Shown here in pieces: positions 39,201 to 42,200 of a stretch of 64,000 bases of DNA. Position 1 is the first letter of the stretch; each line of letters opens with the position of its first letter. The DNA is taken from NCBI GenBank assembly GCA_038373865.1, contig JAXGGA010000487.1:62001-126000 (forward strand), in the 5' to 3' direction. Position numbers and translations under genes: made by a program. This DNA comes from Uloborus plumipes. Taxonomy: Eukaryota > Arthropoda > Arachnida > Araneae > Uloboridae. The notes below the pieces were generated by a model, which saw only the letters and a program-made list of their open reading frames with translations, did not search any database and was not told the DNA's origin.

Positions 39201-42200
39201 AATGAATGATATTATTAAGTAAAATATTTTTTCTAAATTGTAGGGAAAAATAGGCAATGCTATGCTTTGATTTGTTTATTTTTTATGTCTGCCATTACTG
39301 ATTATTTTTCGCGTACTGCCAACTAGCAACTCATGTACCACCAGTGGTATGTGTACCACAGGTTGGGAAATGCTGATTTAGTTCAATAACTTTTGTTAAT
39401 TAAAAAATATATATATTTTAGAAAATACAATAAAAAAGTAATTATTATTATTAATTAGTGTTTTTAATGATTATTGCTCAGAATTTAGGTTTCAGTTGTT
39501 GAATGACTGAGAGTAATGTTTCCAATTGCTTAATTTTTTTGTTGTAAGAAATTTAAATCATTTGTACATTTTAGATTGCTATGTACTTTTTGGGATGCCT
39601 CTGAAAGTTAAAAGTTTTATGGTGTTGAAGTGTAGTTTTCTTCTATGTTATGAGTGAATAACTATTCTATCATTTAATTTATGTCCACAAAGGCTCATTG
39701 TTCTCTATTTTAAACATTAACTGCAGTAAACTAATGTTAGGATGGTATTTTCTCTGAAACAAACAATTAGTAGAACTAAAAATTAAAAAGAAAAAAAATC
39801 TTAATTCTTGGTTGGTCCTTATCTCCTTACAAGTGTCGGTATTTTCTGAAACCAATTTTTGCGGTAGAAATGCTGCTCCATGCTAAGTGCCTGTTATTTA
39901 AAAAATCTTAAACTTTTTGATATGGTTCTACCTTAATACTTCTACCCTAGCATTTTGCTTTAAATTGATGTTCTATGTTAAATATGTGTAGTGTATATTG
40001 ATGCTTTACCTTGTTGAAGTTTTACTTATTTTGACATTTTACTCTTTAGGCTAGCTCAGAGAATTCCGAAACTTTAGATGTTGCCAATTCCTTGTTGGAA
40101 AAATCAGAACAACCTTCTTTGTTAATTTCAGACAATGCTTTAACTGTGTGTCAAGGTAATGGAACTAAAAGGACACTTGAAAATCCATCTGAGGACATGA
40201 GTGAAGCAAAAAAAGTTTGTCTTGATGGTGTACATTGTGGTGAGGAGGATAATCTACAGACAGTTCCAAAGTCTGCTTCACAAAGTGAAAGTACTGAAAA
40301 TAATGATGAGCATAGGACTAATTCTCTTAATCAGTGTTTGGACGGTATTCATTGTGGTGAGGATGATGTTGTGCAAAAGAAATCAACAAAAGTATGTGAT
40401 GACGGAATTCATTGTGGAACAGATGATGAAGATGAAGTTACTAACGAGGAAAAAATGGACACTTCAAATTCTAAACAGGTGTGTTCAGATGGAATTCATT
40501 GTGGAACAGACGATGAAGAAGAAAAACCAACCAGCAGTGAAACATTTGTTGATGCTAAGAATGAAGCTGTAGATTTTGCAAACCAGTCTACAACTGGTGG
40601 TGAAAATATCAAAGGTACTGCAAGCTTGAAAAATTAATTATCACTACTTCAACTTGTTTAAATTTTGGTAACTTTTTACTAATTTTTTATCATCTAAAAA
40701 AAGACATGTTATGTAACAATTAGATGTGATAAAAATGTGAAATGGTTTTTGTATATAATATTGTTAAATATTTTCGTAATTGATTATTTATATTGCGTAA
40801 ACCACCTGGACCTTCTCATCTAATTTGGTTACTATTTAATAATGTAAATACTTGCTCGATTCTACTAAGAAAATATTAATTCAAGTATCTTCAGAATTAT
40901 AGTATATATCTTGGATCAAAATGTTCCATACGTACCAGTGCATCTCTGCTACATATACAATGTAGTAAACAGGCCTGTTTTGTCTACAAGGCTGGCAGAC
41001 TATACTAGACAGCAACTTAACTTGACACTGAACGTCACTACGGGCGGAGCCAATAAGAGCTCACAAGCAGTCGGCGATCTCCTCTAATTCGTTAAGTAGG
41101 CTGTGACGTTTTATCTAGTTCGTTTTTCATAGGCTAACGCAGGGGTGGCCAACCTTTTTAGGGAGAGTGCCACTATCTGGAGGGAAAAAACTCAGCGTGC
41201 CATTGTAGTTTTCCAATAAACTGAAATTTTTTAAAAAGTTAAAAATATATTTTATGTTGGCTGACTATGTAATTCTTACTCGAATGAAACAGTTTTTTCT
41301 CGTAAATCTGAGTAATTTAGATCTAAATGACAATAAAAATAAAACAAGTCGGAACTTCAGAGTTATTGTTAGTAAACACTTTTATAGGTTCTGTCAGTTG
41401 GCTTATACTTAAAATAGAAACAAATAACATCAAACATTTCTATTCTAAAAATTAAACAGTCTGTACTTAATGTGGTTTATAAGTCTGTATCTTTTTTTAC
41501 CAAATCTTTAATTTTTGGATTAGTTCCTGAGAATCTGAAGAAGTTTAAGTGTTTCAAGCAGTGGTCGGAAGTAGCGCGCTACAAGTAGCGAAACTACTGT
41601 AGTAGCTACATTTTTTAGTAGTTTGTAGTGTAACGCACTACTTTTTGAAAAAAGTAGAGTAGTGCGATACAAAAAAATAGTAGTTTGTAGCGATTTCTGA
41701 AAACTACTTTTAAATAAAAAAATAAATAAATAAATGAAAAAAATTCAAAAAAAAGAGAACGAAGGAAAAAAACAAGGTTTTTCTTGTGGGGAATATTTGT
41801 AAAAATTGTAAAAAAAAAATCTTAAAAATACATATTTTTACAAAAAAAAGGAACAAAATGGAAAGGAAACAAATAAATTCAAAGACAATTCCTATTTCTA
41901 TTCCATATTCGAACGAGGTAATTTTTTAATATAAACCACTTTTCGAATTTTTTCGGTCGATCCTCAATTGGTGTATTATTTATTTTTTTGAAAGTAGCGA
42001 AGTAGCAACTACATTTCAAAAGTAGTGTAGCTCGCTACATTTAAAAAAAAGTAGTTGTAGCTGTAGTTAACTACATTTACAACAAAGTAGTTGTAGTTGT
42101 AGTTCGCTACGAAAGAAATGTAGTTTTTTCTGCCACTGGTTTCAAGTGTTATCAATTAATATTCAACGGTATTTCGATTTTTCTGCATTCATGACAAAAA

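Follow-up and report, generated by a model that had tools for sequence, protein, structure and literature searches.

Spider host cell factor carries an array of a short cysteine/histidine word that recurs in unrelated animal proteins and looks like a shared docking signal

According to the available portions of two articles (PMC4840301, PMC4549301), the HCF-1PRO element of host cell factor 1 is a 26-residue repeat cut between cysteine and glutamate, its threonine region is bound by the tetratricopeptide repeats (TPRs) of OGT, and it is reported in vertebrates only. The available portion of a third article (PMC3102056) gives the Taspase1 consensus as Q[ILV]D/GVDD (the slash marks the cut), with Asp in at least one of the last two positions; Drosophila HCF and MLL have such sites. 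The DNA described here is a stretch of 64,000 nucleotides from the spider Uloborus plumipes (contig JAXGGA010000487.1, positions 62,001 to 126,000, henceforth the window), which holds part of a host cell factor (HCF) gene with four copies of a short word, C-x-D-G-[IV]-H-C-G, in one acidic exon. A preliminary description of this exon offered three readings of the motif: an HCF maturation signal of a third type, a metal- or disulfide-based module, or an evolutionary link between OGT and Taspase1 processing. From its sequence the motif looks more like a shared, undescribed docking signal than like a cutting site peculiar to HCF.

Translation of the exon (40050-40613, plus strand) yields VCLDGVHCGEED, QCLDGIHCGEDD, VCDDGIHCGTDDE and VCSDGIHCGTDDE, which upholds the earlier reading of four repeats with a cysteine pair and a DG[IV]HCG core in a single acidic exon. 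The first cysteine of each copy stands at the start of its row in Table 1 (40218, 40335, 40395 and 40482) and the array occupies 40218-40517; the span reported before, 40227..40525, starts inside copy 1. The VCS start of copy 4, to which weight had been given, is no constant element, as spider HCFs have D, S, E, L, N, A, V or T at position 2. From the composition of the exon 4e-7 copies of C.DG[IV]HCG would be expected, against 4 observed. The six core codons differ between any two copies by 1-3 synonymous changes over 3.33 synonymous sites, and the four copies are therefore not fresh duplicates; that no non-synonymous core difference exists among them holds by construction, because the copies were picked by their core. 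A pattern search of six frames over 146 kb of the contig revealed no further copies, and a near-exact word of 17 bases from copy 4, 16 of them fixed, has one match in the 1.42 Gb genome. The degenerate pattern of the motif is TGYNNNGAYGGNNNNCAYTGYGGN.

In protein searches seeded with the motif the same word, mostly with a TDDE or TPPP tail, recurs in proteins unrelated to HCF. The first search had the array as its seed and scored 124 candidates, of which 28 reached E values up to 10; ten of these 28 are spider HCFs and the other 18 are not HCF. Two further searches gave 8 matches among 89 candidates and 3 among 948, ten of these 11 not being HCF and the remaining one (P0037) being a Nephila HCF fragment. 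The carriers include 11 HDAC6 proteins with HDAC and zf-UBP domains, whose named species we all take to be Lepidoptera, and among them is the HDAC6 of Spodoptera frugiperda (P0025), the moth from which Sf9 cells derive. Three XK-related proteins (PF09815) carry the word, one of them from the coral Dendronephthya, as does one SNAPC4 with Myb repeats from the sea cucumber Holothuria. Ten carriers are assigned to KMT2C/D: P0031 (scallop) and P0036 bear the name KMT2C and P0030 the name mll3, P0035 has KMT2-type domains, P0002, P0005, P0019 and P0029 are tied to the family by blast outside the array, and P0001 and P0003 are tied to it weakly, via stretches of 24-35 residues only. Two further carriers, P0032 and P0034, are mutually related and were placed in none of these families. 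An HNH-domain protein with a Cys-Gly-rich run (P0038; four copies, two with Asp and two with Glu at position 9) was judged unrelated and left out of the motif counts. The number of copies per protein is 2-21 in KMT2C/D (molluscs included), 3-15 in XK-related proteins, 8 in Holothuria SNAPC4 and 1-2 in lepidopteran HDAC6. The motif is thus not specific to HCF and is present in at least five unrelated protein families.

The arrays lie outside recognised domains, namely past the XK domain in P0006, past the Myb repeats in P0033 and in the gap between HDAC domain 2 and zf-UBP in P0020, and a Pfam scan of 13 carriers gave no family at cut-off over the array. The spacing of the copies differs (14 residues in P0032 and P0034, 17 in P0006, 20 in P0002 and about 47 in P0033) and the core is constant. 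In the HDAC6 alignment, from which P0018 was omitted on account of an internal duplication in its record, C.DG[IV]HCGTDD is found in all ten motif-seeded rows (HDAC6s without the word being invisible here) while the linker around it hardly aligns. Most HDAC6 records hold a single copy, which suggests that one copy is enough for function, and arrays would therefore probably add avidity. Matches to TMP-TENI (thiamine phosphate synthase) fall below cut-off, at E 8.5e-6 and 2.3e-4, in two KMT2C/D arrays (P0002 58-105, P0030 1274-1344); they are taken as spurious and as a trap for automatic annotation.

The grammar of the motif was counted over 256 strict copies (C.DG.HCG) in 39 sequences, which comprise the window exon and 38 fetched proteins. 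At position 9 there are 184 copies with Thr followed by an acidic residue at +3, 58 with Thr-Pro, 8 with Glu, 3 with another Thr and 3 with K, A or L, and hence 250 of the 256 copies have one of the first three states. All 8 glutamates come from spider HCF (two each from the window and the Uloborus diversus orthologue, four from Stegodyphus). Since Thr9 is kept in two kinase contexts or swapped for Glu, we infer a phosphosite at which charge would be needed, and the sequences suggest that Thr9 is phosphorylated. Position 5 is I, V, L, M, K or T and rarely D or H; position 2 has a wide range, 91 of the 256 copies having Asp there and 34 having P, L, A or K. An array variant with a TPPP tail and a period of 14-18 was seen in P0031, P0032 and P0034, the others having TDDE or alike. 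By composition (standard frequencies, an assumed mean length of 250 residues) the long form C.DG[IV]HCGTDDE is expected 0.002 times in the whole database, for which reason the long form and the arrays are not attributed to chance.

The spider HCFs found are those of Uloborus, Nephila, Oedothorax, Caerostris (two), Trichonephila (two), Stegodyphus, Araneus and Argiope, some of the records being partial. A comparison with other spiders had been proposed as a check, and the motif is indeed present in all ten of these motif-seeded records with 3-8 strict copies each, from which it follows that its copy number changes. The window exon and the ten HCFs were aligned with MAFFT, and 36 motif columns (four nine-residue motifs) were compared with the 152 others. 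The mean majority fraction is 0.876 in motif columns (0.970 for the six core residues) versus 0.551 elsewhere, in rows all of which were found via the motif. The window and the Uloborus orthologue agree at 36 of 36 motif residues and at 118 of the 152 outside it; with each of the nine further rows the window agrees at 20-31 of 27-36 motif residues and at 32-49 of 100-150 aligned residues elsewhere. The pair of the window and Uloborus, with four copies each, is the least affected by the motif-seeded bias.

That the host gene is HCF, as had been proposed, was confirmed by the splice chain and by tblastn with Uloborus diversus HCF (P0004). The gene lies on the plus strand from -15013, upstream of the window, where the earlier Kelch exons are situated, to 52514, and P0004 itself has Kelch_HCF (PF13854, 9.4e-199) and fn3 in Pfam. 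The listed exon pieces are 77-100% identical to P0004 in tblastn against the contig, with an extra match of 19 residues at 74210-74266, beyond the window. The array-bearing exon is 81% identical to Uloborus diversus HCF over 192 residues and has the same flanking exons in both species. Its AlphaFold2 model is without secondary structure, at a mean predicted local distance difference test score (pLDDT) of 44.6, and the exon is accordingly predicted to be disordered.

Table 1. Features of the HCF gene and of the motif array within the window
Feature	Position	Strand	Basis
Kelch exon region of HCF	103..252	+	blast borders; Kelch_HCF in Uloborus orthologue
HCF exon before that of the array, final part of the long disordered stretch	34967..35113	+	splice chain, tblastn
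Acidic HCF exon carrying the array, 188 whole codons	40050..40614	+	AG before, GT after; splice chain
Motif copy 1, CLDGVHCGEEDN, Glu at position 9	40218..40253	+	exon translation
Motif copy 2, CLDGIHCGEDDV, Glu at position 9	40335..40370	+	exon translation
Motif copy 3, CDDGIHCGTDDE, Thr at position 9 in CK2-type context	40395..40430	+	exon translation
Motif copy 4, CSDGIHCGTDDE, Thr at position 9 in CK2-type context	40482..40517	+	exon translation
Following HCF exon region, includes CQSALTLEEPGAQPPAQMCADDPP	45477..45683	+	blast borders, splice chain
C-terminal Fn3 exon region of HCF	52167..52514	+	blast borders, splice chain

Judged by sequence, it is somewhat favoured, at little better than even confidence, that the array is an undescribed short linear docking motif for a partner common to animals. 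The word is short, lies in predicted disorder, is kept above its surroundings (a conservation flattered by seeding) and recurs in unrelated proteins, as is usual for short linear motifs. We infer that four copies of C-x-D-G-[IVLMK]-H-C-G-T/E in the disordered linker of spider HCF would each dock to such an animal-wide partner and that several copies would raise avidity. Phosphorylation of Thr9 would probably modulate binding, through CK2 at copies with a DDE tail and through a proline-directed kinase at those with PPP, and copies with Glu at position 9 would bind constitutively. A metal ion or free thiols may share in the contact, as the residue types of the Cys/Asp/His/Cys core make plausible. 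The furthest-reaching form of this proposal is tentative and rather doubtful: animals would share an undescribed receptor for C-x-D-G-I-H-C-G-pT, engaged via a bridging metal under the control of redox state and of CK2 or proline-directed kinases, and the lineages would have placed the word independently, often as arrays, in different chromatin and cytosolic regulators.

Several points weigh against a docking motif. The short core C.DG.HCG is expected by composition about 1,700 times by chance in the searched database (mean length of 250 residues assumed), and the 3 matches among 948 candidates in the search of short proteins were one HCF, one HDAC6 and one protein judged unrelated. All searches were seeded with the array and show presence and not absence, spider HCFs or moth HDAC6s without the motif being invisible to them; the conservation figures flatter the motif since every row was found through it, MAFFT may have paired non-orthologous copies, and copies within one array are not independent. 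Long arrays, of up to 21 copies, could be partly a product of slippage. A single partner is only assumed, because the five families, being nuclear, cytosolic or membrane proteins, share no obvious pathway. Protein-binding motifs are, moreover, seldom built on Cys and His, which favours metal chemistry.

Each copy might indeed be a metal or redox site of its own, with C1, D3, H6 and C7 as ligands, serving as a zinc, copper or thiol buffer, a sensor or a chain cross-linker with no specific partner. Among the six core residues four are of types that commonly bind metal and are spaced by glycines, departures from the core are few and scattered (4-9 per position among the 282 copies found by the looser rule of at least 5 of 7 core residues), and many copies per protein would suit buffering; on the other hand adjacent His-Cys ligands are unusual, most HDAC6 records are single-copy, Thr9 and its acidic or proline tail are also kept though needless for metal alone, and no fold is predicted for the spider exon by AlphaFold2. 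We regard a site of this kind as rather unlikely. Zinc-bridged docking to the ligase receptor FEM1B or a similar one, with the array as a set of degrons or pseudosubstrates, is drawn from the analogy with FNIP1, which likewise has metal-type residues at +0, +2 and +5 (C, D and H in the motif). FNIP1 and FEM1B form intermolecular zinc fingers with two zinc ions, as far as the available portions of the sources go (PMC11053023, PMC10567573), and a twin-cysteine degron is read by another CRL2 receptor, APPBP2 (PMC10567573, likewise in part). The motif, however, gave no sequence match to FNIP1 or another relevant PDB chain, FNIP1 lacks DG, HCG and an acidic tail, and it would be strange for a single protein to hold as many as 21 degrons, hence a ligase of this type appears improbable.

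A maturation signal of HCF cut at D-G or C-G, or an OGT-Taspase1 intermediate, has in its favour the D-G pair of Taspase1 sites, the multiple copies in the HCF linker reminiscent of HCF-1PRO and the absence of Q-x-D-G from the ten spider HCF records, some of them partial, in which the known site is thus not seen. But a signal specific to HCF loses ground because the motif is found in HDAC6, XK-related and SNAPC4 proteins, and up to 21 cuts would shred KMT2C/D; its copies, moreover, are without the residues that either known system needs (see below). These two proposals of the preliminary description, the third type and the intermediate, are consequently unsupported and keep only a slight chance. 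A beta-TrCP-type degron, independent of phosphorylation or mixed, in which Asp replaces phosphoserine and phosphorylated Thr9 gives the second charge, would have G-I-H-x-G in common with the motif and Asp or Glu and a phosphorylatable Thr suitably placed. It is very unlikely, as His6 and both cysteines are kept at places which that degron leaves free, several residues occur at position 5 (I, V, L, M, K, T, D, H), position 2 often differs from the Asp that the degron has there (the counts stand above) and no PDB chain matched. Slippage products or a functionless mobile DNA word could also be considered in view of the nearly identical copies within KMT2C/D and XK-related arrays, but the window copies differ in synonymous codons, the word is kept among spider carriers and in the mostly single-copy HDAC6, the copy-4 word occurs only once in the genome and no convincing viral or prokaryote match was obtained with the patterns tried, all of which makes an artefact barely credible. 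LxCxE, the Rb-binding word, was considered and set aside: copies 1 and 2 contain [VI]HCGE, but in most copies Thr takes the place of this Glu, and the His is kept.

A viral origin or mimicry was likewise rejected. The degenerate DNA word (TD form only) hit five IMG/VR stretches, all taken as chance; four have stops near the frame and the fifth (L012) is arginine-rich and without further likeness. With P0002 as query no confirmed viral relative was obtained, the peptide patterns used lying outside the motif core, and the strict pattern (hydrophobic position 5, TDDE tail) gave no match in prokaryote genome contigs. Against PDB the whole exon gave two weak, non-significant matches (E 0.13), to a homologue of proteasome subunit 4 and over the acidic exon residues 143-171, copy 4 included, and a sequence search with the array and the consensus peptide gave none at E 10. 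An AlphaFold2 model of the Kelch-containing P0017, which was inspected for self-docking, has a mean pLDDT of 34.4, with Kelch poor too (10 sequences). The letter strings of the motif core were not met in the open-access literature, to which that search was confined, nor was HDAC6, KMT2D and HCF-1 jointly with a short linear motif; among the matches listed for Taspase1 or HCF in invertebrates or spiders none was relevant by title.

Within the HCF linker, the block CQSALTLE[EQ]PGA[QE]PPAQMCADDPP of the exon at 45477-45683 is nearly identical in the window, Uloborus, Nephila and Stegodyphus, and from sequence appears to be another kept element. Two adjoining arrays of 172-bp repeats (6262-6958 and 6963-8014) lie in an HCF intron, and their units start as mutual reverse complements (GTGATGACGTCATCAAAATGGCC and GGCCATTTTGATGACGTCATCAC), making a large inverted satellite. 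At 59515-60126 (plus strand) an open frame with HTH_48 (Mos1) and HTH_32 matches is a remnant of a mariner-type transposase, and another at 62340-62627 (plus strand) has a weak zf-C17orf113 match (E 2.8e-4, below cut-off) and is perhaps a transposon fragment.

A 12-residue word which recurs, arrayed or single, in unrelated regulators of several animal groups points to a common and seemingly undescribed receptor. Its partner, once found, would join HCF, KMT2C/D, HDAC6, SNAPC4 and XK-related proteins through one interaction, and if a receptor reads the word, the location or stability of HCF in spiders, KMT2C/D in molluscs, HDAC6 in moths, SNAPC4 in sea cucumbers and XK-related proteins in corals would be tied to metal, thiol or kinase state. 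At the same time a tempting story is removed, that of spider HCF as a clue to the origin of OGT and Taspase1 processing.

The array resembles HCF-1PRO in having several cysteine-containing copies within one exon of the HCF linker with Thr or acidic residues nearby, and differs from it in lacking the C-E cut, the threonine region and the 26-residue repeat and in occurring also outside HCF. No Cys-Glu corresponding to the cleavage region (P7-E10) is found in the four copies, PPCETH, NPPC or PCE[TS] occurs in none of the 39 fetched proteins, and each of the four copies continues after the core with acidic residues where HCF-1PRO has its threonine region (T14-T24, the site of OGT TPR binding), in agreement with the Thr-rich tail reported missing before. 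With Taspase1 sites all four copies share the D-G pair and acidic residues further on; Cys replaces the Gln at P3 in each of them and His-Cys stands at P3'-P4' in place of Asp, the lack of a P3' Asp having been recognised correctly at the outset. The beta-TrCP degron of beta-catenin reads D-S-G-I-H-S-G and has G-I-H-x-G and surrounding negative charges in common with the motif, which differs by two kept cysteines, a kept His, a variable residue 2 and another charge pattern; where D-pS-G-phi-x-pS, as that degron is generally defined, has its two phosphoserines, the motif has Asp and Cys, and the Asp of the degron is matched at position 2 in 91 of the 256 copies. The FNIP1 peptide in PDB 7ROY, C-N-C-K-Y-C-S-H, is likewise a short Cys/His word with metal-type residues at the same three places, and it differs in a third Cys and a C-x-H end, with its fourth metal-type residue at +7 as against +6 in the motif, the spacing C-x-C-x2-C-x-H being replaced by C-x-D-x2-H-C. 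By analogy, and not by membership, the zinc fingers formed between FNIP1 and FEM1B are a precedent for the metal-bridged docking that may be at work here.
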